From Acidobacteriaceae bacterium (GTDB taxonomy: Bacteria > Acidobacteriota > Terriglobia > Terriglobales > Acidobacteriaceae), in assembly GCA_003152695.1 (NCBI GenBank), contig PMAT01000035.1, forward strand, positions 1-54,543: a stretch of DNA of 54,543 nt, written 5' to 3'. The notes below the pieces were generated by a model. The model saw nothing but the letters and a program-made list of their open reading frames with translations, was not told where the DNA came from and ran no database searches. This document shows, in pieces, positions 39,029-54,543 of this stretch (positions are counted from its first letter, which is position 1; every line of letters starts with the position of its first letter). The position numbers and the translations under genes are program-made.

Positions 39029-41971
39029 TCAACGTATCTGTTGATACTCGGCCTTGGCTTGTCTCATTACAGGCAGGTCGGGGTCGGCATCTTTCCAGAG
39101 AGCGAAAAACTCCTGGTAGCTGCCACGCGCCTTGATGGAGTCTCCTGCCAGCGCATAGGCCCGGCCAAGCTGAAGGCGGGCCAACGCCGCTAACGGACAA
39201 TTGACTGCGACACCGCGCTGATCCAGAAACTTGCGAAATTCGGCGGCGGCTTCTTTACCTTTTTTCAGCGACAAGTAGGCCATGCCGCGGATATACACCG
39301 GGTAGAGCGACCCGCCCACTTCGAACTGGGGAAGTGGAGTGCCGAGTTCGTACGGTTCGGTTGTCTGGAGGATATCGAGGGCCTTGGCCGGATCGCCGCG
39401 CCCGATTTCGATGGAAGCATAAATGGCGGGCAGCCAATAGTGATTGATGACCGTGTTCAGCGGAAAGCGCTCAGCCAAATCATCCGCCATATGTTTCGCC
39501 CGGTCGGCATCTCCGATACGGGCCAGTGCCAAAGCTGCCAGAATGTCCACATCACGAGTGGGCGCGGCAGCAAGCGCTGCGGCGATGTCTTGCCGGCTGC
39601 GGGCAGGATCGTTAAACTCCGCCTCCCGTAACGCGGCATCCATCTGCCATGCTGCCGCGGTTTCCGCTGAGCCATCGCGCCGGGCCGACTCGGCCGCCCG
39701 TTTGGATAATTCCCGCGCAGCGTTGAGGCGTCCATAGAAAGCTTCGGTATCGGATGCGAACGAAAGAAGAATGTCCTCCCCCGGTTTGCCGCTCGCGGCC
39801 GCGACTTGCCGCTTCATCTCGGCGGTGTCGCTGTCAAGAAAGGCAACGCCATAGCGGTTGCCGTGGAGAAACGGATTGTCAACCTTGTGCTCTACCGCTT
39901 CCTTATACGTCCTCTTCGCATCATCAAGACGGTCCAAGGCGGCATACAATCCCACCAGGTTGGTGTAGGCTGCTGCGCTACCCGGGTTAAGACGAAGATC
40001 CTCGAGGCTCGCGGCAACCGCCTTTTCGTATTGTCCTAAGTAGCTGTAATCAACCCCTAGGTTGCCGTAAGGTTCGCCGTTGCGCGGATAGGTCTGGGCC
40101 CACATCTCATACGCCTGGATGGCTTTCTCCAGTTCGCCCGTAACCAGCAGATAGTAGGTGCCCGAAATGCGAAACCTTTCCCGCTCGCTCACTTTGTCCC
40201 GCAGGTCATAAGCCTTCTGCAGGTTCTGACTGGCGAGGCCGGGCTCTCTGAGGTTGGAGTATGAGATTCCCAAGGCTGCGTAGGCAGCCGAGAAGTCAGG
40301 ATCGAGTTCGATGGCGCGGTTAAAGAAGGGAACGGCTGCCAGACTGCCTTGTTCCTGCAACGTCTTCCTTCCTTCGGAGAGGGCCTTCAGAGCTTCCAGG
40401 GAGGGAGTGGTGGCTTGATCCAAAGGAGTGTCGAATTTCTCCACCGTGCTCAGCGACTCGCCGAGTTTTTCCCGCAGCTTGGTCGATGCCTCGCCCAACG
40501 CTTTTAAGACGTGTTCCTTGTTTTCCGCCGTGACTTGTTCCTGCGCCAGCGGATCACCCGACGTGCAGTTGACGGCGTCGAGACCGATTACATACTGCCT
40601 TCCCAGACTGGCAATGGCGCCTGCGATGTAGGCTTTTGCGCCGGCGCGCTGACAGAGATCGCGCGCTACCTCCGGAGTCAGCTTGGTACCACGGGGTTTT
40701 GCCATCAGCTTCAGGGTGGCGCGAATTCTCGCATCGGACAGGATGTTCAGAAAGGGAGACTGGCCCAGTTGCACCGAAATCGCCTGCTTCAAAGTGTCAT
40801 CGAAGACGGGATCTCCAGTCGTATTGTCGAAGTCGGCCAGCATCAGGGTGTCCTGCTCGGTCAACTTAGGGGCGCGGTGCGAGCGCCAGTACAAACCAGC
40901 GGCAATAATTACCGCGATTAACAACAGGACGGGCGCGCCTGTCTTCCACGAGAAAGCGCGCGGAGCTTTGGTGATCGCCGCCTGAGAGACGCTCTCTTTT
41001 GACGACGCAACCTGGCTTTTGAGATGGGATGGTCCGCTTGCAGCAACCTGCTCAGCCGGCAGTTCATTGTCTGCGGCGACAACGACCGAGCGTTGCGAGG
41101 AGTCCGTGTCGCGCTTAAGGCGACGCAGTTCGGCGCGCATGTCCGAGGCATTCTGGTAGCGCAGGGTGCGGTCTTTCTCCAGCGCGCGGTTGATGATGTC
41201 TTCCAGTTTCGGAGGCAGGTCGGGGTTCAGTCGAACCGGTGCGACGGGAGCTTTGTGAAGGATGGCGTCGAACAACAAAGCGGAGGTGTCGCCGCGAAAC
41301 GGCATTACTCCCGTCGCCATCTGATACAGCACTGCGCCAAAGGAGAAAAGATCGGTGCGGCTATCCAGCGGCTTTCCTCGCGCCTGCTCAGGAGACATAT
41401 AGGCGAGCGTGCCCAGGGTGGTGCCGGGGCTGGTGAGATGCTCCTCACCCGCCGCGCTGAGCGTGAGTCCCGATTGATCACTGGCAGAACTCGTACGGAC
41501 AACGGTTACTTTTGCCAAACCAAAATCCAGGATCTTAGCGTGGCCGTTCTCGGTCACGAAGATGTTGGCCGGCTTGATATCGCGATGAACGATCCCCTTG
41601 GAGTGGGCCGCATCCAATCCATCGGCGACCCCAATGGCGATGTCGAGCAGCCGCTCCATCTCCATGGGCCCTTTGTCGACCAGATGCTTTAGTGTGGTTC
41701 CGTCGAGAAACTCCATGACCAGGAATGCGCGACCGTCCTCTTCGCCAATGTCATAGAGGACGCAGATGTTGGGATGGTTCAGGGCGGAGGCGGCACGGGC
41801 CTCGCGGCGAAACCGTTCCAGCGCCTCGGGGTCGCGTTCGACCTGCTCAGGAAGGAACTTGAGTGCGACCAGACGGCCCAGGCGGATGTCTTCGGCCTTA
41901 TACACGACCCCCATTCCGCCACCGCCGATTTTCTCGACGATGCGATAGTGCGAAATGGTCTTGCCCACCAC
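39029..41971 (-). CDS. membrane Ser/Thr protein kinase with C-terminal TPR repeats
   Basis: The 980-residue protein starts with a eukaryotic-type kinase domain (1 to about 270): glycine loop '[14 protein letters not shown]', K38, E57, 'HRDIKPANI' with catalytic D131, and DFG D149. All catalytic residues are present, so it should be active. A juxtamembrane linker and one membrane span (about 345-364, '[15 protein letters not shown]') follow. A periplasmic region then carries many TPR-like repeats (e.g. '[20 protein letters not shown]'). This layout is common in acidobacteria. The start is GTG at 41971, or the next codon. It lies 66 bases after the 12-haem cytochrome gene and could be read from the same promoter. 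Confidence 0.92.
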
Positions 41972-42037
41972 CTGGGAGAGCCCCCTTAGCGTGCGGACTA
42001 TGTTAGGAGTTGCGCGTGCGGCAAGTCAATGCGTTCT

Positions 42038-43936
42038 CTAGTGTCTGATGGGAAGGCCTGCCCCGCCCTTGTTCTTCTGCGTGGCTTGGTTGATGGAGCC
42101 GTCTGGGTTATGTGCGACATTGTGACACACCAGGGTGCAAGTATTGGTGGCGCGGGTGTAGGAGACCGGGGTGCCCCCATTGGCAGCCACCACATTGATG
42201 TCGAAGTTCACCAGACGCTCGCCGGAGATGGTGCCGCTTCTCGCGCCCATGCCGTGGGCGGTATGGCAAACCGAGCAGGTGAAGCCGGTGTTGATGTGGT
42301 CACCGTGATGGTTCCAGCTTGCATTGGAGACGATGTTGTTAAGGTCGTGGCACTTGCCGCACATGGCGTACGGGCCCTTGATGCTAAGGTCGGGGTTCGG
42401 ATACAGGTTCGTAATCAACTGACCGGGTCCGGGCGTCTGGCTGAACTCATAGTCTCTTTCGAGGATGTGCTTGTTGGTCGATCCATGCGGACCGTTGGGA
42501 CCCAGGCCCCCAAACTCGCGATTGTCGTCGCTGTTGTGGCAATCGGTGCAGAAAATCTGGTTGCCCATGGAACGCCCGTGAGTGGTACCGCCATTCAAAT
42601 CCAACATCGTAATCAGCAAGCTGGGCTGGGGTAGCGAACTGGTGCGGGGGTGGGTCACGGGATGGCTCGAGGTAGCGGTGGCAGCGAATTGCGGGATCAC
42701 ATTCAGAGGATCGCCCGCCGAAACCGCCCTTAGCGGCAGATAGCCGAATACGGGATTGGCAAGTTTTCCCGAACTTGAGCCGTGGCAGCGCAGACAATTC
42801 TCGTATTGATTGACGGACGGATTAAGGATGGTTATGCCGTCCGTGGCACTGATTCCGGCAACGCCATTTTGCGACACGCGGATGGCGGGAGGCGGCGGGA
42901 AGACAGACACCTGATTGGAGGAATGTCCGTTGTGGCAGTCCGCGCAGGTGGCATGCCGGTTGTTGTTCAGCAGAACATCTTCGGCAGCGTCGTGGGCATT
43001 GTTCCCCGCGGGAAACGGATGTCCCACCTTGGCAAACTCGGCATAGACATTGGGGATCGCAGGATCGATATTCGCACTGCCGTTGTGGCAGGCGATGCAG
43101 TCCTGCTCATTGGGCCCGCGCAGCAGGCGCATCGGGCCCTGCGCGTTGTGGGGCACATGGCAGGAGATACACGCGTCTTGCCCAACGGTGCCATAGCCGC
43201 CAAGTTTCGCCTGCCCGGCTACTTTGTTGGTCGCCAGGGCATGCGCGCTGGTGGCCCATCCCGCGAGCGGGTTGACCTGGCCGGACATCGTCCGGGTGGG
43301 ATCGTGGCAGGCAAGGCACATCTGCGCGTTCGAACTGTCGCGCACCAAAAAGTTCTGCGATAACCTATCGATGGCCTGCACATGAGGGTTATGACAGGAC
43401 GTGCACTCAATGTTGCCATCGATCAGTGTCACTTTCCCCAACGGATCGCCGGTCTTACCCTGCGAAGCCAGCGACGCGATCAGGTCGATCGTATCCTTGA
43501 TGGGCAGAACCAGGCTGAAAGGATGCGAACTCTGGAGGTTGGTCCCGAAGACGTCGGCGGGATACATGGACCCAGTCATGGTGATCTGGCCATAGACAAT
43601 CGTCTGACCGGGTGCGACAGTTCCGTCGTGACAGCTCAAACACAAGTTGCTGTCGGCGCCCAAGGTAGGTTGGGTGCCTTTTTGGTGATAGGTAGTGCTG
43701 GTATAGAGCGAATAGGTCGCCGTAGTCTGCGTCTGGTTCCAAAGCGGAGTTCTTCCCCCAGCCCCGTTGTGCGGCTCATGGCAATAGGTGCAGGAACCAG
43801 GGCGCGCGCCGGTAATCGGCGATTTGCTGCTCGGCCCCAGGTCATGCATGCCGATTACATCGCCCGTGATTTGCGCCAGCAGGGCAGGCCCAGCCAACAT
43901 CAGCACCGCGCAAACAGATAACAAGCGCCGCTTCAC
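42038..43936 (-). CDS. secreted 12-haem c-type cytochrome
   Basis: The 632-residue protein has a signal peptide (to about residue 21, 'ALLAQ') and eleven CxxCH motifs starting at C49, 99, 178, 207, 256, 280, 331, 381, 463, 526 and 554. One CxxxCH follows at C600. Many lone histidines can provide second ligands. The first four haem sites follow the order seen in the tetrahaem cytochrome of the same operon: D-V-x-G-x-H, CxxCHxPHxG, 'LCLSCHDG', 'HP', CxxCHNxH, then CxxCH. Haems 5-8 repeat this order. It likely carries electrons at the outer surface. The GTG start overlaps the NHL stop (GTGA), so it is translationally coupled. It is the last cytochrome gene of the operon. Confidence 0.92.
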   Translation of the reverse strand: MKRRLLSVCAVLMLAGPALLAQITGDVIGMHDLGPSSKSPITGARPGSCTYCHEPHNGAGGRTPLWNQTQTTATYSLYTSTTYHQKGTQPTLGADSNLCLSCHDGTVAPGQTIVYGQITMTGSMYPADVFGTNLQSSHPFSLVLPIKDTIDLIASLASQGKTGDPLGKVTLIDGNIECTSCHNPHVQAIDRLSQNFLVRDSSNAQMCLACHDPTRTMSGQVNPLAGWATSAHALATNKVAGQAKLGGYGTVGQDACISCHVPHNAQGPMRLLRGPNEQDCIACHNGSANIDPAIPNVYAEFAKVGHPFPAGNNAHDAAEDVLLNNNRHATCADCHNGHSSNQVSVFPPPPAIRVSQNGVAGISATDGITILNPSVNQYENCLRCHGSSSGKLANPVFGYLPLRAVSAGDPLNVIPQFAATATSSHPVTHPRTSSLPQPSLLITMLDLNGGTTHGRSMGNQIFCTDCHNSDDNREFGGLGPNGPHGSTNKHILERDYEFSQTPGPGQLITNLYPNPDLSIKGPYAMCGKCHDLNNIVSNASWNHHGDHINTGFTCSVCHTAHGMGARSGTISGERLVNFDINVVAANGGTPVSYTRATNTCTLVCHNVAHNPDGSINQATQKNKGGAGLPIRH

Positions 43937-45036
43937 TGGGACCCTCCCTTGCCCGGCTTGGCGACGCCGTAGTAATGAAAGACCTGGACCCGCCGGTTGA
44001 AGGAATCCACCACGAAAATCCGGTCGTTATGGTCGATAAACAAGCCGGCCGGCAACTGAAATTCACCTGCACCGGTGCCGCGATTGCCAAAGTAGTACAG
44101 CAGATTGCCGTCGCGGTTGAAGACCTGCACCACGCCCCACAAGCCATCCACCACGTAGAGATCGCCCTCCGAGTCGAGCCCAATCCCTTTGGGACGGAAC
44201 ATTGTCCCGGGAGCGTCGCCGATCCTCCCCACCGCGTACTTAAAAGCCCCGGAACGGTCCAGCACCTGCACGCTGAAGTTCATCGCGTCCACCACGATCA
44301 GGTTCTGGCCGTCCAAGCGCAGCTCGGTCGGGAAATTGAACTTGCCGGGGCCTTCGCCGTTATCCCCGATGGTCTGCACCACGCCGCCCTGCATGTCCAG
44401 AACAAATATCTTGTTGCGCAGCGTGTCGGTGACATAGATCCGCTGGGCCGCTGAATCCACCGCAATCCCGGTGGGACGCTTGAAGAAACCTTCGCCGCCC
44501 TTCAGGCTCCCGATGGCCCGCTGATACTTCCCGTCGGAGTTGAAGACGAACACCTTGCCCACCTCGGAATCGGTCACGTAGATGTTGTCCTGGGCATCCA
44601 CGGCGACGCACTGCGGCGCCAGCATCGGGTCCTTCCCTTTGCCGGCGCGCGACAGAAACTTGTACTTCTGTTGCTGGAAATCGAAGACGTGGACCCCGAT
44701 GGCTCCCGGGTCCGTCACGATGATGCGCCCGCGGGAATCGACGGCGACGCTGTAGGGACGGACCAGACTGTGGAACTCCGGCTCGCCGGCTACGAAGTCA
44801 ACCACTTTGTTCCAGAAGCTGCGCTTCGGCTTCACTTCGCGCTGCGAGCTGAAGCTACGCTCGTAGCTAAGCTTGCGGCCGCCTTCCAGCAACATATCCG
44901 GAGGCGCCGGCTGGGTGGGCTTCTCTTTGGGCTTGGACGCCCACGCCGGGGTCAGCAGGAGAAGAACAATGCAGGCGGCGTTGGAGAAAAAATGTGAGGT
45001 TCTCGTGCGCGCTCCCCCTAGAAGAAATTGAACCAC
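43933..45036 (-). CDS. secreted NHL-repeat propeller in the cytochrome operon
   Basis: The 367-residue protein has a hydrophobic signal near residues 18-33 ('ASNAACIVLLLLTP'-like; seen as 'ACIVLLLLTPAWA') and six NHL-type blades from about residue 90 ('SVAVDSRGRIIVTD', 'QCVAVDAQDNIYVTDSEVGK', 'TGIAVDSAAQRIYVTDTLRN'). The GTG start lies inside the end of the barrel gene, overlapping by 19 bases; the start is not certain because no good ribosome site fits. It overlaps the 12-haem cytochrome at the other end. NHL proteins recur beside multihaem cytochromes and may organise the surface complex. Confidence 0.85.
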   Translation of the reverse strand: MVQFLLGGARTRTSHFFSNAACIVLLLLTPAWASKPKEKPTQPAPPDMLLEGGRKLSYERSFSSQREVKPKRSFWNKVVDFVAGEPEFHSLVRPYSVAVDSRGRIIVTDPGAIGVHVFDFQQQKYKFLSRAGKGKDPMLAPQCVAVDAQDNIYVTDSEVGKVFVFNSDGKYQRAIGSLKGGEGFFKRPTGIAVDSAAQRIYVTDTLRNKIFVLDMQGGVVQTIGDNGEGPGKFNFPTELRLDGQNLIVVDAMNFSVQVLDRSGAFKYAVGRIGDAPGTMFRPKGIGLDSEGDLYVVDGLWGVVQVFNRDGNLLYYFGNRGTGAGEFQLPAGLFIDHNDRIFVVDSFNRRVQVFHYYGVAKPGKGGSQ

Positions 45037-46850
45037 CTGGTCACCCCAATAAAGAACGAGGAAATGTTGGCGGGCGGAAGTCCAGACGCGCTGAAACCCT
45101 GCGACAGGTTTGCGTATCCCCCTACCAAATTCATTTTACGGAATTGGTATTGGAATTGCGCATTCATTCCTTCAAATTGGTTGGAAGACCCAATTCCGGC
45201 ATTCACCGTGTTGGTCGATGATTTGGAGTAACTGGCCGAGACCGTCAGCTTGCGCAGCGGGGTGCTTCCAAGGCCGAATCCGTAGCTGGTCCCACCGTAA
45301 AGGGTGATCAGGTCCGATGGTATGATCGGCGACAGGTTCAGCGGCAGTATCCCGCCCCCGGTAATAAGTCCGATGCCATTCGATTTGGCGTAATTACCGG
45401 TGAGATTGATGTACTGTTTCCACCCGAAGCCGGTCGAATAGCCTTGGCTGTTGCTGTTGGTACCGGGTAGGTTGGTCAGACCACTGTGGCCGACGTTTGC
45501 GGCCGCGCTCCAATTGAAATCGCCGAGGCGGCGCCTCACGTTCCCCGAATAACTGTAATACGAAGTCGTGTAGCTGATCAGCAGGGTGGAGACATTCTGC
45601 GCATAGTTGAAGGACCCGCCCACGAACCAGGGGCCGATGCGGCGGTTATAGCTGGCGCTGGTCGCGAACCCGAGCGCGTTCTGGTTGCTGCGGTCCACCA
45701 TGCTGTCAATCAAGCTCAGAGCAGTGTTCAGGGAGCCGCCCAAAAGACCATGCGAGTAGGTGACGCCCGCGCTAAAGGAAGTTGCTCCGAAGTTGTCACC
45801 CAGGTAAGTCTGATCGCGGCGATCGGCTTGCGCCTGGAGTTGCAGGTTCGACGCCAGGGAATAGCTCGCCCCCCCGGTCAGGTCCCAGGCATGGGACGAT
45901 TCCAGATTGTTTGCCGGTACCAGGCTGTTGCCCGATTGGAGCAGCGATTGAAACAGAATTCCAGCCAGATTATCGGTGTAGCTGGTGGTCACCGACATCT
46001 GCAGTTTGTCGTTAGGTTGCACCGCCGCCGCGGCGACCAGGGTGTCAAAGTCGCCCTTGTAGCTATATCCAAGATAGTCCGTATCGATATTTGACCGGTA
46101 GAAGCTGGTGGAAAAATTTCCATTCAGGGGAAGCCTATGCGACGCATTCACCCCGTAACCGCTGTTGTCGGTGGTGATGGTTCCCGTCTGCTCGCCCTGG
46201 AATACCTGTGGAACAATGGAGTTGGAAGCGCCCTTCTGATAAGAAGCGCCCAGATTGAAACCTGCAATCGAATAACTCGAACTCAGGCCGAAGGAATGAA
46301 AGTCCGAACTGCCATTGCTATTCTCCCCATACACCGAGTACTGGTTATTGCCCGTCTGGAAATTTGCCGTGAGGGAGGGCCAGTCGGGAAGGAACTCGCT
46401 CCAGTTAATCCCAAAGGTGTCGCTATTGCCATGGGTAGTGAAGTTGGGCAGGCCGGGCACCGCAAACTGCCCCTCGCTGTTATACGCCTTGGCATAACTG
46501 ATCGATCCCGGAAAATGGCTGCCGCTGAAGATGGAACTGGAGAAATTGACGCCGCTGCTGTCGGAGATGGACTGGAAGTTGGAGTTGGCCCGCGATTGCC
46601 CGTAATAAGGGGAGAGATTGAAGGACACGAAATTGGGACTGTAGTAGTACCCGGAGGCGGTGGCATTGCCCCCGAAATTGAGGCCGTGTGACGACTGGAT
46701 ATCATTGCCAAAGTCGCCGCTGTAGCCGGCGGAAATGACACCGCTCAGGTTGGTGCTCAGCTCGCCCACTTGGATCTGGCCGACGGCCGGCAGCGCCCAA
46801 AGCAGCAGCCCGGCTATCCCGCAAAACGCATCTCGGATCCTACGGCGCAC
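45018..46850 (-). CDS. large outer-membrane beta-barrel of the cytochrome operon
   Basis: The 610-residue protein has a signal peptide (to about residue 24, 'LPAVGQ'). It then has a long series of short amphipathic strands rich in Y, N, S and G ('GYYYSPNFVSFNLSPYYGQS', 'YSYSGNVRRRLGDFNWS'). It ends in 'FFIGVTRWFNFF', a strong outer-membrane terminal strand. Length would allow more than 20 strands. There is no coiled coil, unlike the porin at 3065-4645. Situated between a foldase and cytochromes, it is a candidate conduit or export pore, as in porin-cytochrome complexes. The GTG start has GAGG upstream; it starts 16 bases after the PpiC gene. Confidence 0.8.
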   Translation of the reverse strand: MRRRIRDAFCGIAGLLLWALPAVGQIQVGELSTNLSGVISAGYSGDFGNDIQSSHGLNFGGNATASGYYYSPNFVSFNLSPYYGQSRANSNFQSISDSSGVNFSSSIFSGSHFPGSISYAKAYNSEGQFAVPGLPNFTTHGNSDTFGINWSEFLPDWPSLTANFQTGNNQYSVYGENSNGSSDFHSFGLSSSYSIAGFNLGASYQKGASNSIVPQVFQGEQTGTITTDNSGYGVNASHRLPLNGNFSTSFYRSNIDTDYLGYSYKGDFDTLVAAAAVQPNDKLQMSVTTSYTDNLAGILFQSLLQSGNSLVPANNLESSHAWDLTGGASYSLASNLQLQAQADRRDQTYLGDNFGATSFSAGVTYSHGLLGGSLNTALSLIDSMVDRSNQNALGFATSASYNRRIGPWFVGGSFNYAQNVSTLLISYTTSYYSYSGNVRRRLGDFNWSAAANVGHSGLTNLPGTNSNSQGYSTGFGWKQYINLTGNYAKSNGIGLITGGGILPLNLSPIIPSDLITLYGGTSYGFGLGSTPLRKLTVSASYSKSSTNTVNAGIGSSNQFEGMNAQFQYQFRKMNLVGGYANLSQGFSASGLPPANISSFFIGVTRWFNFF

Positions 46851-46866
46851 AGCCTATACCTCGTCC

Positions 46867-47880
46867 CTACAACACCTCGACCTTGGCGCCCTGGTGCAGT
46901 TGTTTATCGAAGCTGGCGCGCAGGTCGTTGGTCTTCTTCTGCTGCAGCTCTTTTTGCAGCGAGGCTTTGACATCGTCAAATTTCGTTTTGCCAGCCGGGA
47001 CGTGCTTGACCAGCCGAACGATGGTGTAGGCCTGCTCCACCTGGATAATGTTGCTGATCTGCCCCGTCTGCATGGCTGCCAGCGCCTGCACCACGGAGGG
47101 CGGCAGCTTGGCGCGATCCACCGGCTTGTGGTAGCCCATCATCACGCGGTAGTCATCCTCGGAGATTTTTTCCGCCAGCATGCCAAAGGCTTCATCCGTG
47201 TTCGCCGCCTTCGCCTGCTTGAGCGCGTCCTCGGCCCGCTTGCGCTGCTCTTTCAACAGGCTTGGGGTGGGCTTCTCCGGCGGCAGAATGGTAATGGTCT
47301 GGAAGGCGAAGGCTTCGGGATACTTGAAGCGGTCAGGGTTCTTATCGTAATAGGCCTTTAGCTCGGCCAGGCCCACCGTGGACTTTTTGTCCACCTCGGC
47401 CTTCAGCAGTTGGTCGATCAACAGCGAGCGCTTGATCTTTTCGCGCAGTTGCTGTTCCGAGCCTTGAAACTCTACCTTCAAGAGCTGTTGGTACTCCTCG
47501 GGAGTGGCGAATTGTTTACGGAAATCTGTCTCGGCGCTTTTCAGACGCTCCGGCGAGACCGTCATTTTCCGCCGCTGCGCCTCCTGATACACCAGTTCCT
47601 CGAAGATGATCATCTGCAGCGCGCCGCGGCGGATGTCTGGTGCCATCTCCGCGGGAATGTTGCCGTTATGCTGGCGCGCATAAGGAAACATGGTAAACAT
47701 TTCCCTCTGCAAATCGCGGTCGGTAAGCACCGCGCCGTTCACGCGCACCACCGGCTTGCCGCTGGGTTGGCTGACTGTCTTTTGCGGTGTTGAGAACTGT
47801 GAGGGGGCGTGCGAGGCAACCTGGGCAACTGCGGCGGTGACGGTAAGCAGAACTATTGCGATTGCATTCCGGTACTTCAT
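46867..47880 (-). CDS. PpiC/SurA-like periplasmic peptidyl-prolyl isomerase
   Basis: The preferred start is the ATG at 47880, five bases after GAGGAG; a GTG directly before it is possible. The 338-residue protein has a signal peptide (to about residue 20), a SurA-type N-terminal helical part ('VRVNGAVLTDRDLQREMF'), and a parvulin-like rotamase region at about 190-310. The latter contains 'YHKPVDRAKLPPSVVQALAA' and 'QAYTIVRLVKHV'. Such foldases help outer-membrane and multihaem proteins fold. Located between the tetrahaem cytochrome and the barrel, it probably serves one or both. A hairpin separates it from the cytochrome gene. Confidence 0.87.
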   Translation of the reverse strand: MKYRNAIAIVLLTVTAAVAQVASHAPSQFSTPQKTVSQPSGKPVVRVNGAVLTDRDLQREMFTMFPYARQHNGNIPAEMAPDIRRGALQMIIFEELVYQEAQRRKMTVSPERLKSAETDFRKQFATPEEYQQLLKVEFQGSEQQLREKIKRSLLIDQLLKAEVDKKSTVGLAELKAYYDKNPDRFKYPEAFAFQTITILPPEKPTPSLLKEQRKRAEDALKQAKAANTDEAFGMLAEKISEDDYRVMMGYHKPVDRAKLPPSVVQALAAMQTGQISNIIQVEQAYTIVRLVKHVPAGKTKFDDVKASLQKELQQKKTNDLRASFDKQLHQGAKVEVL

Positions 47881-47910
47881 CACTTCTCCTCACCCCTGAG
47901 GTTAAAGATT

Positions 47911-47933
47911 GAGGGGAGGGAGTTCCTCCCCTC
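47911..47933 (-). promoter_or_regulatory. intercistronic hairpin between the tetrahaem cytochrome and ppiC genes
   Basis: On the transcribed strand GAGGGGAGG and CCTCCCCTC form a perfect 9-bp stem around a 5-base loop, 15 bases after the cytochrome stop codon. The sequence after it (AATCTTTAACC) is not a proper U-tract. It could partly terminate transcription or protect the cytochrome mRNA, giving more cytochrome than downstream proteins. Confidence 0.6.
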
Positions 47934-47948
47934 GGATAAGCCGACAAA

Positions 47949-48821
47949 CTAGAAGGTCGTCGGAATGGCGTCGCCGCCGTTCATTTCGTTGGCTTCGCCA
48001 CCATGGCACTGACGGCAGAACTGCGCCGTCTGGTTGGAGCCAGCCGTTCCGCTGCCCGGGTTGTAAGGCGCGCGGATGAAGAACATCGTCTTGTAGTTGC
48101 CCGCAGGCAGACCTGAATTCGAACTCTTGACAGGCACTACGTTCATGAGGTGCTGGTTGTGGCAGGTCGTGCAGGTTACGACGGCCGTGTTGTTATAGGC
48201 GCTCAGGCTGACGAAGAAGCCATAGTTCGTAAAGAACTCAGACGACTTCGGGCCGTTCATGGAGATGACGCCGTTGGTTTCGGTGCAATCCCAGTTATGC
48301 GAGCCACCGCAGCCAACCGCCGCAGTCAGGCCCACCGGGTGATCGTTGAGGTAATCGCCAGCGCCGTTGCCGTCCTTGCCGAGCAGGGTCGGAATGATGT
48401 TCTTGGTTCCATAAGTTGGCGGCAGGGTCTCATAGACCTGGTTTCTCATCATGGCGCCCTGGGCGTAGTTGCCGTCGTGGCAGCTCAGGCACAAGGTGAT
48501 GTTGAGGTCAGGCGTAGTAGCGGTGAATCCAACCAGCGTCTCCGCGTAATTGTGGCCCGGGCCGGTCCCGCCGAAGTTGAAGGTCTTTCCAACCAGATTG
48601 CCTACGTCCTGGCCCCACAGCGCGACGTCGCCAGAAGTAGTATCGCCAGAGGTCATGTTGCCGTTGCCCCATGCGCCGCTGTGCGGAGCGTGGCACGCAG
48701 CGCAGCCGCGGCCGTAGTTAAGGTGAGCGCCCAACACGTCAGACGTTGGGTTTCCGATCTGGGCCATCGCGAACATCCCGAAGGCCAGAATCGTGAGGGT
48801 TACTAAGATTACTTTTTTCAT
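47949..48821 (-). CDS. secreted tetrahaem c-type cytochrome (candidate filament subunit)
   Basis: The 290-residue protein has a clean signal peptide cut near 'AMA-Q' (20/21). Four CxxCH haem sites are at C40-H44, C111-H115, C217-H221 and C269-H273. Six other histidines (H33, H47, H90, H161, H175, H224) can give bis-His ligation. C171 and C179 may form a disulfide. Motifs include 'DVLGAH', 'CAACHAPHSG', 'NDHPVG' and 'CTTCHNQH'. The chain is long for four haems and rich in G, N and T. A strong AGGAGAT ribosome site precedes the ATG. It leads an operon with a foldase, a barrel, an NHL protein and a 12-haem cytochrome. OmcE-type tetrahaem nanowire subunits of Geobacter have comparable haem number; homology is not shown here. 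Confidence 0.9.
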   Translation of the reverse strand: MKKVILVTLTILAFGMFAMAQIGNPTSDVLGAHLNYGRGCAACHAPHSGAWGNGNMTSGDTTSGDVALWGQDVGNLVGKTFNFGGTGPGHNYAETLVGFTATTPDLNITLCLSCHDGNYAQGAMMRNQVYETLPPTYGTKNIIPTLLGKDGNGAGDYLNDHPVGLTAAVGCGGSHNWDCTETNGVISMNGPKSSEFFTNYGFFVSLSAYNNTAVVTCTTCHNQHLMNVVPVKSSNSGLPAGNYKTMFFIRAPYNPGSGTAGSNQTAQFCRQCHGGEANEMNGGDAIPTTF

Positions 48822-48960
48822 GAGATCGATCTCCTGATATGAACTGCAGTTTTTGATTCCGTACTCCTGGAGACCCTAGGCCCCAAATGGCCTCCGCTGG
48901 TGGTAAGAGCAACTGGCTGGCCGAAAAATGAACAGCGCCTCATTTTTATACAAGTTGCTG

Positions 48961-48989
48961 ATAATAAGCTGCTTGCTTGACAATTAAAA
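48961..48989 (-). promoter_or_regulatory. candidate sigma-70-type promoter of the tetrahaem operon
   Basis: On the minus strand TTTTAA (48989-48984) and TATTAT (48966-48961) are separated by exactly 17 bases. The -10 box is good and the -35 weak, as expected for an activator-dependent promoter. Transcription would start near 48954, giving a leader of about 130 bases. A second TATAAA (minus strand) lies a little further downstream and is an alternative -10. Confidence 0.4.
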
Positions 48990-48991
48990 CC

Positions 48992-49009
48992 TTGTGACGG
49001 CGGTCACAA
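48992..49009. promoter_or_regulatory. Crp/Fnr-family palindrome TTGTGAC-N4-GTCACAA
   Basis: TTGTGAC (48992-48998) and GTCACAA (49003-49009) are perfect 7-bp inverted arms. The core fits TGTGA-N6-TCACA, the classical binding pattern of Crp-type regulators, without mismatch. It lies directly upstream of the -35 candidate, centred about 45 bases before the inferred start of transcription. That suits an activator touching RNA polymerase. Confidence 0.65.
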
Positions 49010-49193
49010 ATGGGTGAAAAGAGCCACTTGGCAGGACTGGCTGGTTAAATGCCCCAATTGCAGCAAAAGCTGGGGTAAGTTTGGTACGGGGAAACACCGG
49101 GAGGAGACTACGGCGTAGCCTTCGACGTCGCGCCAGTCGGGCTCACAAAATACAACTTTAGCCGTAGGCCCCTGGGAAGGCAATGGACCAAGA

Positions 49194-49273
49194 ATTCACC
49201 ACGGAGGCACGGAGGGCACTGAGAAAACTCCATGGAGACTAAGAACTCGTTTCTTCGCGGCTCCGTGGTGAAT
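49194..49273. repeat. 80-bp element with 13-bp perfect inverted ends
   Basis: ATTCACCACGGAG (49194-49206) and CTCCGTGGTGAAT (49261-49273) are exact inverted repeats. The interior has no coding signal. Elements with 'CACGGAG...CTCCGTGGTGAA' ends are widespread dispersed repeats (from memory). It lies just after the stop of the NHL gene, between the two cytochrome operons. Confidence 0.75.
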
Positions 49274-49286
49274 GATTCGTTGAAAC

Positions 49287-50591
49287 TTACTTCTTGACCT
49301 CGGGCACGGCTTGCGTGTCGGGTTTGGCCTGCGCGGCCTGCTGCGTGGTGGCAGGCTGCTCGTTGGCCGACTTCTGGCCGCCTCTCTGCGCTTCCTTCTC
49401 CTTCTTGAGCTGTTCGGCTTCGGCATCGGTGATGTAGCGGAACTGCTGCACCCGGCCGGGGTATTGCTCCGAGGTGAAAACGCGATTGTCCTTGTCGATC
49501 GCAACCCCGACCAGCGATTCAAACTGGCCCGGATAGTGACCAGGTCCGCCGATGTACGTCAGCAGTTGTCCCGCGCGGTTGAAAACCTGCAACTGATTCT
49601 GCATCGCGTCAGCCACCCAGATGTGCCCATCGCCGTCCACCGCGATTCCCTTGGGCCGCGCAAAATAGCCCGGGCCGTCGCCGTTCTTGCCGAAGGTGCT
49701 GAGGAAGTTGCCGTCAGCGTCGAAAATTTCCACCCGGTCGTTGAGCGTGTCGGTGACGTAAACGTTGCCGTCCTTGTCCACAGCCACACCCTGGGGCGCG
49801 GCAAAATTTCCCGCATCCATGAGGAAGTGGTTCTTGCCGGCGGTGCCAATCTTGCGCAACAACTTGAGGCTGTCTGCGTCATAAACCAGCACCTGGTCCT
49901 GTTGGGTATCCACGATGTAAAGGAACCGGTTCTCCTTGTCAATCGCCAGTCCCACCGGATCGATGAGGCCTTTGTCAATCTGGTCCACCACCTCATGCTT
50001 GGCGTTGAAAATCAGCACGCGGCGCAGCTTGCCATCGGAAACAAATAGGCGGTCGTCGTCGTCGATGGCGAGAGCGTTGATCAGGCCGAAGTGCGCCTCA
50101 TAATTATTGCGAATCAGCACTACGTCGCGGGTTTCCGTGTTGAAGATGAAGATCGCCCCCACCCTTTGGTCGGCCACATAGAGCTGGCCCTTGGAGTCCA
50201 CCGCCATGCCATAAGGACCAATGAGCTGGAAGGGGAAATTCTTAAGATTTTCCTTTTCGTCCTGCGGCTTGGAGCCCGCCAGACGATCCATCCAACCCTG
50301 CTTGGGCTTCGGTTTCGACGCCGTCGGGGTACGGTCGATCTTCATCCCCGCGTAGTAAGCCGTATAGCGTACGCGCGGAATGGAAGGCGGCTGCGGCCAC
50401 ACCAGTTTGGAGATGTCGATCTTGGACAGATCGACCATTTGTTCTAACCCTGGCTGGGAGGGGGCCGCATCGGTCTTCTTTTTCTTGCCGGCATAAACGG
50501 AAACTGGCGAAGCCAGCCCCACCATAAGCAAGAGCGCCAGCGCCATCCCAGCTTTGCCGCGGCAAAAACGAGTTGGGCAAATCGTAAGCAT
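49287..50591 (-). CDS. secreted NHL-repeat propeller paired with the 16-haem cytochrome
   Basis: I prefer the ATG at 50591 (TGGAGA eight bases upstream) over longer starts that overlap the cytochrome. The 434-residue protein has a signal sequence at about 14-34 ('AGMALALLLMVGLASPVSVY'). It has six NHL blades at about 125-385 ('YGMAVDSKGQLYVADQRVGA', 'QGVAVDKDGNVYVTDTLNDR', 'KGIAVDGDGHIWVADAMQNQ') and a low-complexity Q/K/A tail. It follows the 16-haem cytochrome by 26 bases. The N-terminal part 'IPRVRYTAYYAGMKI' is shared with NHL proteins found in cytochrome loci (from memory). Confidence 0.85.
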   Translation of the reverse strand: MLTICPTRFCRGKAGMALALLLMVGLASPVSVYAGKKKKTDAAPSQPGLEQMVDLSKIDISKLVWPQPPSIPRVRYTAYYAGMKIDRTPTASKPKPKQGWMDRLAGSKPQDEKENLKNFPFQLIGPYGMAVDSKGQLYVADQRVGAIFIFNTETRDVVLIRNNYEAHFGLINALAIDDDDRLFVSDGKLRRVLIFNAKHEVVDQIDKGLIDPVGLAIDKENRFLYIVDTQQDQVLVYDADSLKLLRKIGTAGKNHFLMDAGNFAAPQGVAVDKDGNVYVTDTLNDRVEIFDADGNFLSTFGKNGDGPGYFARPKGIAVDGDGHIWVADAMQNQLQVFNRAGQLLTYIGGPGHYPGQFESLVGVAIDKDNRVFTSEQYPGRVQQFRYITDAEAEQLKKEKEAQRGGQKSANEQPATTQQAAQAKPDTQAVPEVKK

Positions 50592-50617
50592 AATCACTAT
50601 TCTCCACATCCTAAAAT

Positions 50618-52048
50618 CTATTTCGTGATGACCCTCATGTCGAGCCGGTTCTTGTGGCAGTTGTCGCAAAACGCCATGTTGTTGGCCTGGTCCTTCACCA
50701 GCAGATCGGGCTGGGCGGAAGAATGCGGCTGGTGGCAGCTCAGGCAGCTCATGGAATACTTCACTTTGGTAATGTTGGCCGGATCCATAACGTCACCAAC
50801 CGGGTGGTTCTCCACCGGATGGCCCAGGCCGTAGCGCAACGGAAGGATCGCCACCTTGTGCTTCACATAGTAGTCGTCGGGCAGCTTGACCTTGCCATTA
50901 AAGATGGTCAGCAGGTGTTCGGATTCCAACTTCTGCGGTCGCGAATCGGGGCCATGACACTCCAGGCACAGCGCATTGCCCTGCGCCCGCAGCAGCTTGG
51001 GATGGTCGCCGCCATGCGGCTCGTGGCAGGTGGCGCAGCCCTGGCCAAACGCCGGTTGATGCAGGTGCGCCTTCTTCATCTGCTCCGACTGCTCACTGTG
51101 GCAGGCGAGACATGCGTTCACCGGATCAGGCTGCAAGAAGCCCGGCGTCGCTCCGGCGTGCGGATTGTGGCAGGCGATGCATTCGCCCTGCGCGCCCGGA
51201 TGTGGCACTTTGGCCTTGTCAATCTGCTCGGCCTGCTCGCTGTGACAGGTAACGCAGAGCGCCTTGGTATCGCTCTGGGTCAGCACCACCTTGCCGTCTT
51301 TGGCGGGCGCATGACAGGTATCGCAGCTCCCGCTGGCGAAGGGCGCGTGCGTGAACGCCTGCATCAGTTTGGGCTGCGACGACTGGTGCGGATCGTGACA
51401 CTGCACGCAATTGGCGGTGGCGAACGGTTGCCCTTGATGCGCCTTGATCAGGCCCTCATCCTTGGGATCGTGGCAATCGAGGCACAGCGCCGGAGTGGCC
51501 TTGGTCAGGTGATAGTCGAACTCGATCTTGCCCTTCTCGCCGACCTTGTGAGTGACGTGGCAAGTTTCGCAACCCATGTCTAACGCAGCATGCCGGCTGC
51601 CCTTGTCAGGAACATTCAGTCCTTGCTTGTGGCAGCTCAGGCAGAGGTTCTCGTTGGCCCCGCCTGAAGTCGGCTTCAGCAGTTGGTTCTTGTTGTCGGA
51701 AGTATGCGGATCGTGACACTTGAGGCAATCGCGAACTGCCGGAGGATGGACCGTGCCTTTCAGGTTGGCAGCGTTCTTGTCGGCGTGGCAGGTAAGACAA
51801 AGCGAGTATGGCGTTGCGGTGATCAGCTTCACGCGAGTGACATCCTTGTTCACTCGCACTTCGTGGCAACTGGTGCAGCCGGTCGCGATGGCCGAGTGGA
51901 CTGACTTGCCCTTGGCTTTGTCCTGATGACACTCGATGCACTTGGCGGAGTCTGTGTTCTTGTCCAGAGGTACGGGATGTGTGGCCGCGCCGCACAGGCC
52001 GGCGCTCCAAATCAAGCCCAATCCCAAAAACAACCGTACTCCCCTCAC
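50618..52048 (-). CDS. secreted 16-haem c-type cytochrome
   Basis: The 476-residue protein has a signal peptide (to about residue 21) and sixteen CxxCH motifs spread evenly from 'CIECH' near residue 37 to 'CDNCH' near the C-terminus, about one per 28 residues. Many motifs are followed by 'xPH' ('CHDPH', 'CHNPH', 'CHEPHGG', 'CHQPH'), giving nearby second histidine ligands. This resembles the doubled CxxCH type of cytochrome used as a molecular wire in the periplasm or at the surface. The GTG start at 52048 is preceded by GGGAGG. It is the first gene of a two-gene operon with an NHL protein and is divergent from resB-ccsA, which supply the haem attachment it needs. Confidence 0.95.
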   Translation of the reverse strand: MRGVRLFLGLGLIWSAGLCGAATHPVPLDKNTDSAKCIECHQDKAKGKSVHSAIATGCTSCHEVRVNKDVTRVKLITATPYSLCLTCHADKNAANLKGTVHPPAVRDCLKCHDPHTSDNKNQLLKPTSGGANENLCLSCHKQGLNVPDKGSRHAALDMGCETCHVTHKVGEKGKIEFDYHLTKATPALCLDCHDPKDEGLIKAHQGQPFATANCVQCHDPHQSSQPKLMQAFTHAPFASGSCDTCHAPAKDGKVVLTQSDTKALCVTCHSEQAEQIDKAKVPHPGAQGECIACHNPHAGATPGFLQPDPVNACLACHSEQSEQMKKAHLHQPAFGQGCATCHEPHGGDHPKLLRAQGNALCLECHGPDSRPQKLESEHLLTIFNGKVKLPDDYYVKHKVAILPLRYGLGHPVENHPVGDVMDPANITKVKYSMSCLSCHQPHSSAQPDLLVKDQANNMAFCDNCHKNRLDMRVITK

Positions 52049-52510
52049 AAACTACCTCCCCACCTGAGACTAACTATATGTGCAAGTCGAATGCCGTCGC
52101 CCGCCAGGCCGCAGAGATGTGGGCATGACGGCGCTAAGTTATTGTTTCAGAGAGAATTAGACGGTCGCGGGATTTCCCCGCTGGCACCCCGGGAGGGCCG
52201 GATTGAGACTCGCGGAATGGGTTTTCCTCCGCACGCAAAGGTGAAATCCCCCACCAACTTCTCTCTGCCATAGAGTAACGCAAGCGCCTGCCGTCGGCCA
52301 TAGCACCCCAGAGTCGGATGCGGAAGTTGGTCGAGGACTGCAGCCCCGAATGCGCGCTTTCATCACCGCAATGCGTGATATGCCTCACTCCAGCGGCGGA
52401 CATTGAAGTGTTCGCTCTCGCGCAATTGCCCCAATCGCAATGACTTGCATGTTTGTCGCGGGATGGCTTCCTACGTGCACTTTGTTAGGTGCTCACGGGA
52501 AGGAGCACGC
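52049..52510. other. 462-bp divergent region between the 16-haem cytochrome and resB
   Basis: No gene is supported. A short dyad ATCAC-N8-GTGAT (52362-52379) and a GCGGG-N5-CCCGC stem near 52170 are visible. Neither arm matches the perfect Crp-type palindrome at 48992. Promoters for both operons must be here, but I could not pick one with confidence. Confidence 0.5.
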
Positions 52511-54001
52511 ATGGCCTTCAGCCTTTCATGGATTCCAAAACGCATTCATAAGACCTTCGCCAATTTGCGGACAGGCATTGTCCTGTTGATTCTGGTTGTA
52601 ATCGCGTCTGCCATGGGAACGTTCGTTCTGCAGCGCCCCGCCACTGACGCGGACAAACTCACCCAGGCTTACTCGCCCAACACGCTGCGCTTGCTCGATC
52701 ACTTGATGCTCACCGACGTATTCCATTCGTGGTGGTTTCTCACTCTGTTGGGATTGGTAAGTCTGAGCATCGTGTTGGTGTCGATTGATCGCTTTCCCAA
52801 TGCCTGGCGCTTCTACGCCAGGCCATATCGCAAGACGGACTGGCACTTCCGCGCAGCGCTTCCCCACAAGGTTGAGCTGCCCATCAAGAATGCCGAAGAC
52901 GGACTGAACGCTGCCGAGCGTGCACTCAAGAAGCTGGGCTGGCCGGTCGATCGCGTCGCCTACAAAAACGAACCCTCCTTATATTCCGAGCGGCATCGCG
53001 TCTCGGTGATGGCGGTGTACATCGTCCACGCCAGCCTGCTTCTGATCTTCGCCGGCGGCATTGTTGATGGGATCTTCGGGTATAGCGGTTTTCTGGCGCT
53101 GCACAAGGGTCAAGCCGACAACGTCATCGAGCTGCGCAGCGGGGGCAAGAAACAGCTTCCGTTCGCGTTGAAGTGTTACGCCGCCGGACAAGAAAACTAT
53201 GCCGACGGTTCGCCCAAGAAGTGGTGGTCGAAGCTGGCCGTGGTTCGAGATGGACAGGATGTGCAGAAAAAGGAAATTGTTGTCAACGACCCGCTCCTTT
53301 ATAGCGGCGTTCGCTTTTATCAGGCGAGTTACGGATCCAACGGCAAGGTTCAGAAGTTCAGCCTGCTTGCCACTCCGAGCAGCGGCTCTGGCGAAAAGCA
53401 GGAAATTGGCATGGCGCTGAACGACAGCGTTGCACTCGACGCCGATACCAGCGTGCGCTTCGTCGAATTCATCCCCGACTTCGCGGTGCGCGACGGGCAG
53501 GTCTACAAAAAATCAAACTACTTGGACAATCCCGCCGCCCACCTGGTCGTGACTTCGAAAAAAGCTGGCAAGGATTTTGATGTTTGGCTTCCGCAAATGG
53601 GCGACGTCACCGACAACTCCAAGGCACCCTATCAATTTCAGCCTACCGATTTAAAGATGGGCCACTTCACCGGCTTGCAAGTCTCGCACGAGCCCGGGCA
53701 GTGGGGAGTGTGGTCCGGCGTAGTGCTGATGGGCATCGGTCTGGCCTTGGTGTTTTACGTAGTACACATGCGCTTTTGGATGGTGCCGGTTTGCGATCCA
53801 AAAACCGGCAAGTACTCGCTGTGGATCGGTGGCAGCGCGAACCGCAACAAGGATGCCTTTGATCAGCGCTTCAATGACCTGGTCGCGTTGGTGGAAGAAA
53901 ATCTAAAGGCCATTCCTGCCGACATTTCGCGCGAAGCAATCGAGAGTGTCGCCGGTAACCAAAGCTGCGAACTGTCACAGCGAACCGACTTAGCGAATTG
54001 A
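52511..54001 (+). CDS. resB: cytochrome c biogenesis protein ResB (System II)
   Basis: The start at 52511 follows GGAAGGAG; the frame open from 52403 has no homology before it. The 496-residue protein shows the ResB layout: TM1 about 20-40 ('TGIVLLILVVIASAMGTFVL'), TM2 about 75-92, and TM3 about 165-187 containing H173. A large periplasmic domain with 'GVRFYQASYG' and a last TM near the C-terminus ('WSGVVLMGIGLALVFYVVHM') follow. ResB with CcsA moves haem across the membrane and joins it to CxxCH motifs. ccsA follows 36 bases later. The neighbouring genes carry 32 haem motifs, so the pairing makes sense. Confidence 0.94.
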   Translation: MAFSLSWIPKRIHKTFANLRTGIVLLILVVIASAMGTFVLQRPATDADKLTQAYSPNTLRLLDHLMLTDVFHSWWFLTLLGLVSLSIVLVSIDRFPNAWRFYARPYRKTDWHFRAALPHKVELPIKNAEDGLNAAERALKKLGWPVDRVAYKNEPSLYSERHRVSVMAVYIVHASLLLIFAGGIVDGIFGYSGFLALHKGQADNVIELRSGGKKQLPFALKCYAAGQENYADGSPKKWWSKLAVVRDGQDVQKKEIVVNDPLLYSGVRFYQASYGSNGKVQKFSLLATPSSGSGEKQEIGMALNDSVALDADTSVRFVEFIPDFAVRDGQVYKKSNYLDNPAAHLVVTSKKAGKDFDVWLPQMGDVTDNSKAPYQFQPTDLKMGHFTGLQVSHEPGQWGVWSGVVLMGIGLALVFYVVHMRFWMVPVCDPKTGKYSLWIGGSANRNKDAFDQRFNDLVALVEENLKAIPADISREAIESVAGNQSCELSQRTDLAN

Positions 54002-54037: not shown

Positions 54038-54543
54038 ATGGCACACGCAACGGTAGAACAGCAGCAACCGGCAACCGGCACAACCCTCGTCGTACTGGTC
54101 GGACTCGCCGTTACCTTCTTGCTGTTCATGGCATTTCTGAACGTGGTGAAAAGCGGCAACATCGTGAATGAGAGCAACCTGCTCTTTGCCGCACTGATCT
54201 TTTACTCTGGCGCCGGAGCGCTCTATCTCGGATTTGGCGTTACCGGTACACCTTCCTACTTGAAGTTTGCATCGTTCTCCACCTCGCTCGGATTGGTCGC
54301 GAATACGGCAGCCATCGCCCACCGCTGGTATGAAAGCGGACACGCGCCATTTTCCAGCGTCTACGAAATGCTGCTCAGCTTCGTGTGGACGCTCGCGGTG
54401 CTCACGCTGGTCGCCGAGAAAAAATATGGCGTCAAAGTAATTGGCACCGTCACCATGCCGGTCGCAATCGTCGGCGTAGTGTTGATGCAGTTGCTGCGTA
54501 CTGACGTGCATCCCCTGGTTCCCGCGCTGCAATCGACCTGGCT
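54038..54543 (+). CDS. ccsA: cytochrome c biogenesis protein CcsA/ResC, cut by the window end
   Basis: Translation from the ATG at 54038 (GGGAGG upstream) stays open to the last base, giving 168 residues. It has three or four membrane spans ('TLVVLVGLAVTFLLFMAFL' first). The CcsA-like stretch 'HRWYESGHAPFSSVYEMLLS' is followed by 'DVHPLVPALQSTW' at the break. The conserved haem-handling WWD loop would lie beyond the window. It forms the System II synthetase with ResB just upstream. Confidence 0.92.
   Translation, partial: MAHATVEQQQPATGTTLVVLVGLAVTFLLFMAFLNVVKSGNIVNESNLLFAALIFYSGAGALYLGFGVTGTPSYLKFASFSTSLGLVANTAAIAHRWYESGHAPFSSVYEMLLSFVWTLAVLTLVAEKKYGVKVIGTVTMPVAIVGVVLMQLLRTDVHPLVPALQSTW

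Follow-up and report, generated by a model that had tools for sequence, protein, structure and literature searches.

Closest described systems and the acidobacterial locus

The export, anchoring and electron feeding of cytochrome nanowires are named as an open question in the accessible portion of a 2025 review (PMC12307469). Among the closest described systems, the undecahaem electron transfer (Uet) cluster, uetABCDEFGHIJ, was described in Tenderiales and is present in Gallionella, and in the available parts of its two sources it consists of the tetrahaem UetA, the isomerase UetB, the barrel UetC, the trihaems UetDEG, the NHL proteins UetHI and the 11-haem UetJ (PMC10734462, PMC12575090). In the available text of the first source, Uet is a complex of porin and cytochromes that takes up electrons and has an 'extracellular tetraheme cytochrome', and it is not presented as a filament (PMC10734462). 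The structure 7tfs corresponds, in the accessible part of its source, to the OmcE filament (PMC12954529), and a Geoalkalibacter locus, in the available excerpt of its description, combines two NHL proteins and MtoA-like cytochromes with a homologue of OmcE (PMC12016550). Here we describe a seven-gene cassette on the 54,543-nucleotide contig PMAT01000035.1 (assembly GCA_003152695.1) of an Acidobacteriaceae bacterium, the whole of which is referred to as the window. The cassette encodes, in order, a 16-haem cytochrome (A), an NHL beta-propeller (B), a secreted tetrahaem cytochrome (C), a peptidyl-prolyl isomerase (D), an outer-membrane beta-barrel (E), another NHL beta-propeller (F) and a large multihaem cytochrome (G), and it probably serves to assemble and anchor a cytochrome nanowire of the OmcE type, for which it supplies a dedicated end subunit. 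By sequence comparison the seven-gene cassette is conserved, C and a module of G are homologous to OmcE, the haem-ligand pattern is kept and a hairpin follows C; polymerisation of C, the swapping of histidines between its subunits, a role of G as base, a conduit formed by E and A, and the direction of electron flow are what we infer.

Compared by description only, and within the available parts of the Uet sources, UetA, UetB, UetC, UetHI and UetJ resemble C, D, E, B/F and G, respectively. The difference lies in the trihaems UetDEG, in place of which a 16-haem MtrA-like protein (A) is found here; no trihaem gene is present among the seven cassette genes of the window. Every Uet part but the trihaems has a counterpart here, and the locus is therefore called Uet-like and not a Uet member. 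Plasmid records searched with G yielded no match.

OmcE of Geobacter sulfurreducens (7tfs) and its homologue 9yuq share with C four haems, a pattern of extra histidines and profile homology over the full length, but C is longer than OmcE (290 versus 232 residues), with added loops and a conserved C-terminal tail. In the OmcE filament one histidine is passed to the neighbouring subunit, and in the proposed polymer C would do the same. The fusion of an OmcE module into G further distinguishes the acidobacterial cassette from the OmcE system. The Osc (omcS-companion) cluster, associated with OmcS nanowires, is said to have been reported by Shen et al. in 2025 to hold a prolyl isomerase, channel-like proteins and a beta-propeller beside the filament cytochrome. 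OmcS is a hexahaem cytochrome, in contrast to the four haems of C; the C profile had no OmcS match at E-values up to 10, and an OmcE-like profile matched OmcS weakly, with 26 bits and E = 4e-5, the best-scoring part spanning 18 positions.

For the Geoalkalibacter locus, an isomerase, a barrel and an OmcE-module fusion are not named in the available excerpt (PMC12016550). The open-access literature, a scope outside which the primary Uet, Osc and OmcE papers lie, yielded nothing linking Uet with OmcE-type filaments and no description of such a locus in Acidobacteria. That literature likewise gave no precedent for an OmcE module inside a protein of 11/12 haems or for the split form of that module, nor for a twelfth haem site of the CX3CH type, the attenuator or the link between Uet and OmcE, all of which appear to be new here. 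An earlier interpretation made from the letters of the window (the sequence-only reading) had considered such a system little described in this type of bacterium; the system is not without precedent, as the Uet gene set in the available parts of its description is nearly the same.

Homology of C and of a module of G to OmcE

Profile comparisons identify C as a divergent homologue of OmcE over its full length. An alignment of 34 C proteins (A1) was used, from which the C genes of two stretches containing masked bases (L028 and L029) were left out; the eight Cys and four His of the four CXXCH motifs were invariant in all 34. A single hhalign comparison of C with an alignment of OmcE, 9yuq and 12 acidobacterial homologues gave a probability of 99.2 and an E-value of 1.9e-19 over columns 1-276, while the control, the 16-haem A family, reached a probability of 55.9 and an E-value of 1e-4 over 56 columns only. 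Against the PDB, the A1 profile matched 9yuq_N (E = 4e-4), the sole direct profile match in the OmcE family; 9yuq_N, whose entry holds 16 chains, is a multihaem cytochrome of 218 residues and is itself homologous to OmcE (7tfs_A, 7e-33). A single-sequence phmmer search of C against the PDB gave nothing at E-values up to 1, and a search of the window's genome with C gave a single match, C itself. As a guard against similarity driven by the CXXCH motifs, all letters but the motif C, C and H were shuffled and the global score was recalculated. OmcE yielded z values of 6.4 against C of the window and 8.7 against the N-terminal module of G, compared with 0.8 and 0.2 against the rest of G and 2.0 and 3.6 against two parts of A as controls.

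The histidines outside the haem motifs are consistent with this relationship. H33, H47, H161 and H224 of C are invariant in 34/34 sequences and are candidate distal ligands, and each of the 34 shows the OmcE pattern, in which a His precedes the first CXXCH, haems 1 and 3 each have a CHxxH, and an HP stands between haems 2 and 3. In a 40-sequence alignment that includes OmcE, the positions of H47, H161 and H224 are His in 39, 40 and 40 rows, respectively, and H33 pairs with the N-terminal His of the G module, which in turn pairs with that of OmcE. A His within 60 residues before the first CXXCH occurs in all 34 C proteins, in 49 other tetrahaem proteins and in two overlapping sets of 28 and 24 G sequences; the other three positions are His in 34/34 C, 45-47 of 48 other tetrahaem and 52/52 G sequences. 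We infer that the four extra histidines of C are haem ligands. According to the available text on OmcE and OmcS, haem-binding motifs and distal histidines are common to both proteins while the remaining sequence drifts freely (PMC9473688).

Two non-haem cysteines of C, C171 and C179, occur in at least 90% of C proteins and have no counterpart in the OmcE sequence; a disulfide between them is possible.

The G protein holds a second, distinct OmcE-type module, which in most lineages appears fused to an 8-haem part. The G profile (A2) matched OmcE 7tfs_A with an E-value of 4.2e-20 over its first ~210 residues, the single G sequence matched 9yuq_N (1.2e-12) and 7tfs_A (1.7e-11), and hhalign of the module against OmcE-like proteins gave 3.7e-35. 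Furthermore, a split form occurs in L083, L084, L086 and L088, in which a stand-alone tetrahaem gene is followed by a gene that has seven CXXCH motifs and corresponds to the remainder of G. When 96 modules were placed in a tree, computed with a quick method and no bootstrap, 34 G modules, those four stand-alone copies and one sequence from L114 formed one group (Shimodaira-Hasegawa-like approximate likelihood ratio test, 99) that lay apart from the free OmcE-like proteins. It is because the module matches OmcE and the split copies group with the G modules that a second module is recognised, and on this basis G is proposed to be the end or adaptor subunit of the filament, in keeping with the sequence-only reading, in which G was a base or terminal wire.

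That reading had also counted 12 haems in G, a number that stands only if an atypical CX3CH site is included, since 11 motifs are CXXCH. Residues C600, C604 and H605 of this site show no variation across the 22 rows of the G alignment, and CxLxCH is found in 28/28 full-length G proteins of other stretches and in nine of 14 shorter G-like open reading frames with 6-8 haems. Two of the 28 (L109 and L110) repeat rows of the 22, and the 21- and 13-haem A-like proteins L086_3190 and L106_15252 were taken off the full-length list by hand. Because the site is conserved in full-length G, these 'undecahaem' proteins probably carry 12 haems.

The distribution across 396 acidobacterial genomes places C among OmcE-like genes. 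C was detected in seven genomes, once as a fragment, and the six with a full-length copy belong to the window's own family; at the thresholds used, the barrel E was found in the same six. The G profile matched 44 genomes over many families, 26 of them nearly at full length, and the remaining matches came mostly from an OmcE-like gene standing on its own or from one portion of G. From 37 of these 44 genomes 40 stretches were taken, one of the other seven genomes being the window's own; G003 and G046 gave two G loci each, and L109 and L110, which share their coordinates with L025 and L020, are apparently the same loci as these, which makes the sets overlap. An NHL gene lies directly upstream of G in all 28 full-length G loci, and a tetrahaem gene of the OmcE type lies upstream on the same strand in 24/24 loci with enough contig (19 OmcE-like, 5 C-like), a count that sets aside L099, L102, L104 and L105, where the contig ends just upstream. 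The order A-B-T-PpiC-barrel-F-G, with an OmcE-like tetrahaem gene T, was observed in L080, L081, L082 and L097, and L078 and L079, from the window's own family, carry an OmcE-like gene in the place of C. The OmcE-like genes of the fetched stretches match OmcE at BLAST E-values of 3e-11 to 4e-45, values that come from a nine-protein database and look smaller than they would in a large one. C therefore occupies the slot held elsewhere by OmcE-like genes. Beyond the close relatives, length and an aromatic C-terminus were the only marks used to pick out candidate barrels; with a profile of E, a distant relative was found in L078 beside the OmcE-like gene (5e-16) and a weak one at L045 (4e-5).

Proposed subunit ratio and conduit, and rival explanations

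A leaky terminator after the first gene is a known way to overproduce a structural subunit, e.g. in pilin operons. A G+C-rich hairpin followed by T's lies directly 3' of the in-operon C in 27/27 loci, the window included, after L028 and L029 were left out for the masked bases in their C genes. The same type of hairpin follows one of seven second copies of C and two of 140 other cassette genes (A 0/22, B 0/19, D 0/27, E 0/25, F 0/24, G 2/23), compared with 0.1-0.2 expected per set from mononucleotide shuffles. Among tetrahaem genes in the other fetched stretches it was found after 21 of 49 (0.2 expected), a set in which some loci recur and some of the genes are not in the operon slot. The consensus rule (five T in eight) missed the hairpin between C and D, which has four T in eight, and our own scan therefore asked for four; this rule was set after the hairpins had been seen. 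Stem sequences differ between loci, and the stems are out of register on the alignment. The hairpin is proposed to be an attenuator that would raise C over D-G, and it offers the strongest hint outside homology that C may be a polymer subunit. The same signal would also arise from a full terminator or from a stem that stabilises the RNA. The proposal in the sequence-only reading that C is an abundant polymer subunit thus gains from the OmcE homology and the conserved hairpin, with polymerisation itself still a prediction.

The 16-haem cytochrome and, less clearly, the barrel point to the Mtr complex. E has no Pfam or NCBIfam family at E-values up to 0.01. The first Foldseek match of its AlphaFold2 model, which lacks a plug domain, was the Mtr-complex barrel chain 6r2q_B (E = 2e-12, TM 0.51), followed by S-layer barrels, receptors and LptD, the first E-value being about 85 times lower than the next. 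The A profile matched 6r2q_A of the same complex (E = 4e-25, best stretch 251-367 of the profile), and A scored 1.5e-52 and 178.6 bits against TIGR03508, below the cut-off of 192.2. Chains A and B of 6r2q are presumably MtrA and MtrB, the molecule name of chain A in the entry being odd. Since the best Foldseek match of E and the profile match of A fall in one complex, A and E likely form a conduit, with E proposed from its model as conduit or export pore. The locus nevertheless differs from MtrAB(C) in that A has 16 haems and not 10, and E is without a sequence family and has 28 strands in the model; no MtrC homologue turned up, no search aimed at MtrC having been made. VIA-align placed small porins first for the E model (Z 17-18, root-mean-square deviation 10-15 over at most 305 of 610 residues). 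The earlier assignment of the barrel as pore or conduit accordingly draws on the 28 strands, the Foldseek ranking and the kinship of A to the same complex, and VIA-align speaks against it.

A-like proteins near the cassette in other families (L083-L086, L112 and others) carry from 5 to 42 CXXCH motifs.

Taken as a nanowire cassette, the locus would work as follows. C would be exported via Sec, loaded with four haems by System II, of which ResB is encoded next door, and kept folded by D, a proposed periplasmic foldase whose SurA-like family match supports the PpiC foldase of the sequence-only reading. C would then cross the outer membrane via E and polymerise outside, where, as in OmcE, one His of each subunit would ligate a haem of the next. 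G would be a low-copy end subunit whose OmcE module joins the filament base, and its 8-haem part would extend the haem chain as far as A, the 16-haem MtrA-like protein lodged within or beneath the barrel. The propellers B and F may be scaffolds or regulators of assembly, and the hairpin would cut read-through so that C is in excess over D-G. The wire would link the quinone pool to outside acceptors, such as humic substances and Fe(III) in peat or soil, or carry electrons in reverse.

Several results weigh against an OmcE-type filament cassette. The match of the A1 profile to 9yuq_N had a best-domain i-Evalue of 0.87 and strong composition bias. Shuffle z values of the 34 C proteins ranged from 0.9 to 7.2, with 15 below 3.5 and thus no better than the A control (3.6); the five weakest belonged to two second copies of C and three in-operon copies. 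As many single C proteins are no better than this control, the case for C and OmcE rests on profiles. Furthermore, a very long branch (length 2.5) separates the C family from the other members in the tree of 96 modules, and the AlphaFold2 model of C, from 34 sequences, reached a predicted local distance difference test score (pLDDT) of 42.3 and a predicted template modelling score (pTM) of 0.31, so that fold and haem chain are not readable from it. H33 is out of register with the N-terminal His of OmcE in both the 40-sequence and the profile alignments, and four extra histidines for four haems would fit a monomer equally. Codon bias of C (0.674) compares with 0.62-0.69 for its neighbours, 0.66 for ribosomal proteins and 0.66-0.70 for C of four near relatives; as C is not above its neighbours, codon adaptation says nothing either way on its abundance. 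In L029, where C is broken by masked bases, the 21-base gap has no hairpin. The Mtr barrel is absent from the 50 rows that VIA-align listed for E, PpiC was recognised in 9 of 28 G loci, and the cassette is patchy in its own family, where of at least 28 members sampled 8 match G and at least 20 do not.

The strongest competitor, which we consider unlikely though well worth weighing, is a porin-cytochrome conduit that has no polymer, in which the haem chain of A and G would run through E and C, as monomer or oligomer, would terminate that chain as an extracellular reductase or oxidase. An MtrA-like A and an Mtr-like barrel make a conduit likely in any case, and the gene set is near that of Uet, which the accessible text portrays as a complex of porin and multihaem proteins that has an 'extracellular tetraheme cytochrome' (PMC10734462). 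However, C and the G module belong to the family of OmcE, whose solved member 7tfs is a filament; the hairpin suggests an excess of C that would be needless in a 1:1 complex; and 7 of the 28 named loci have second copies of C beside a single G. Far less probable is a soluble tetrahaem shuttle, secreted or periplasmic, with a cassette serving some other envelope task and a likeness to OmcE due to shared CXXCH motifs only. The low single-sequence similarity of many C members to OmcE, the failure of C alone to match the PDB, the composition bias of its profile search and its uninformative AlphaFold2 model would all fit such a shuttle, yet the window's C keeps a z of about 6 when everything but the CXXCH letters is shuffled, the 16-haem control aligns only locally, and OmcE homologues proper occupy the same slot in other families. 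A barrel E that is a common porin for nutrients, or a receptor, and shares its operon with cytochromes by coincidence, as the small porins at the head of the VIA-align ranking might suggest, is the least credible of all in view of its 28 strands with no plug, the Foldseek ranking of the Mtr-complex barrel and the joint occurrence of E with full-length C in 6 of 396 genomes at the thresholds used, although distant E relatives also occur in L078 and, weakly, L045.

The nanowire reading can be extended to the proposal that Uet-type loci and OmcE nanowires are one machine, with an OmcE polymer, a G-type 12-haem base on an MtrAB-like barrel and a subunit ratio set by the hairpin; we advance this tentatively, as an idea somewhat more doubtful than not. 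If true, G would be the missing anchor and electron-entry piece of cytochrome nanowires. The small conserved cassette would offer a concrete answer to the question of how such wires are anchored, namely an end subunit bearing a copy of the wire subunit, and may join two literatures, on Uet electron-uptake clusters and on OmcE nanowires. It also places the trait in Acidobacteriaceae/Terriglobia, several carriers coming from peat bogs. Electron transfer to humics or iron in bogs would compete with methane formation.

Gene order, neighbours and minor observations

The sequence-only reading had described five genes, C-D-E-F-G, in tight order with overlaps and short gaps, which was confirmed from open reading frame coordinates: all five lie on the minus strand at 42038-48821, with overlaps of 19 bases (E/F) and 4 bases (F/G) and gaps of 65 (C-D) and 16 (D-E). 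The ribosome site it had ascribed to C is likewise there (AGGAG, 9 bases 5' of the ATG). Its borders were too narrow, as the unit reaches 52048 with B and A upstream on the same strand and resB lies next door. Locus conservation, which it had named as a check, was borne out in 28 named relatives, i.e. acidobacterial stretches from genome records, some of which end early on one or both sides: CDEFG is unbroken in 28/28 as far as the stretches extend, at 35-95% identity per gene. Such an unbroken order at this divergence is not a chance arrangement. Gene orders were ABCDEFG (11), CDEFG-c-AB (4, c being an inverted second C), CDEFGAB (3) and shorter strings (10). B adjoins A in 21/21 loci showing both, and a ResB relative is present in 10 of the 28, all within the 11 ABCDEFG loci. 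Isolate names with bog, palsa or fen occur in 8 of the 28.

Table 1. Features of the cassette and its surroundings in the window (Pfam/NCBIfam family calls at E-values up to 0.01).
Feature	Position	Strand	Details
Gene G, 12-haem cytochrome, 632 aa	42038..43936	-	11 CXXCH + 1 CX3CH; doubled-CXXCH/cytochrome c7 families
Twelfth haem motif of G, CTLVCH (CX3CH)	42122..42139	-	invariant in 22/22
N-terminal OmcE-like tetrahaem module of G	43301..43936	-	approximately residues 1-212, signal peptide included
Gene F, NHL beta-propeller, 367 aa	43933..45036	-	PF01436 6e-23
Gene E, outer-membrane beta-barrel, 610 aa	45018..46850	-	AlphaFold2 model with 28 strands, pLDDT 74.5, pTM 0.58
Gene D, SurA/PpiC-type peptidyl-prolyl isomerase, 338 aa	46867..47883	-	PF13145 3e-16, PF13624 6e-14
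Terminator-like hairpin between C and D	47911..47933	-	9-bp stem, GAGGGGAGG/CCTCCCCTC
Gene C, secreted tetrahaem cytochrome, 290 aa	47949..48821	-	4 CXXCH; doubled-CXXCH/cytochrome c7 families
Gene B, second NHL beta-propeller	49287..50669	-	PF01436 3e-26; true start codon probably further in
Gene A, 16-haem periplasmic-type cytochrome, MtrA/DmsE-related	50618..52048	-	16 CXXCH
ResB, System II cytochrome c biogenesis	52403..54001	+	PF05140 9e-84; divergent neighbour beyond A

A consensus scan of 41900-52400 found 6 promoter-like sites where 3.4 were expected, and the gap before C contained none of them; terminator-like sites numbered 10, with 10.7 expected. The B-C gap holds an imperfect inverted repeat at 49175-49270 on the minus strand (caccacggag ... 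ctccgtggtg), which resembles a dispersed palindromic element, and a similar stretch is found in the C-D gap of L009.

Second copies of C were observed in L012, L014, L019, L020, L023 and L024, and in L018, where the copy lies upstream; six are inverted and 3' of G. A further solitary copy is present in L094.

On the other side of the unit, the open frame at 54038-54541 (+) after ResB is CcsA-like by eye (System II cytochrome c maturation). The gene that immediately follows the cassette, 39029-41971 (-), was labelled by eye as a serine/threonine kinase with TPR repeats, and a relative 92% identical to it adjoins G in L008. A third NHL-repeat protein near the cassette is encoded at 37236-38567 (-; PF01436 7e-24). 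Elsewhere in the same genome, further cytochrome c7-type matches were found at C3, C10, C15, C27, C39, C41, C121 and C128, in open reading frames of 149-724 residues, and the genome seems to be rich in multihaem cytochromes.

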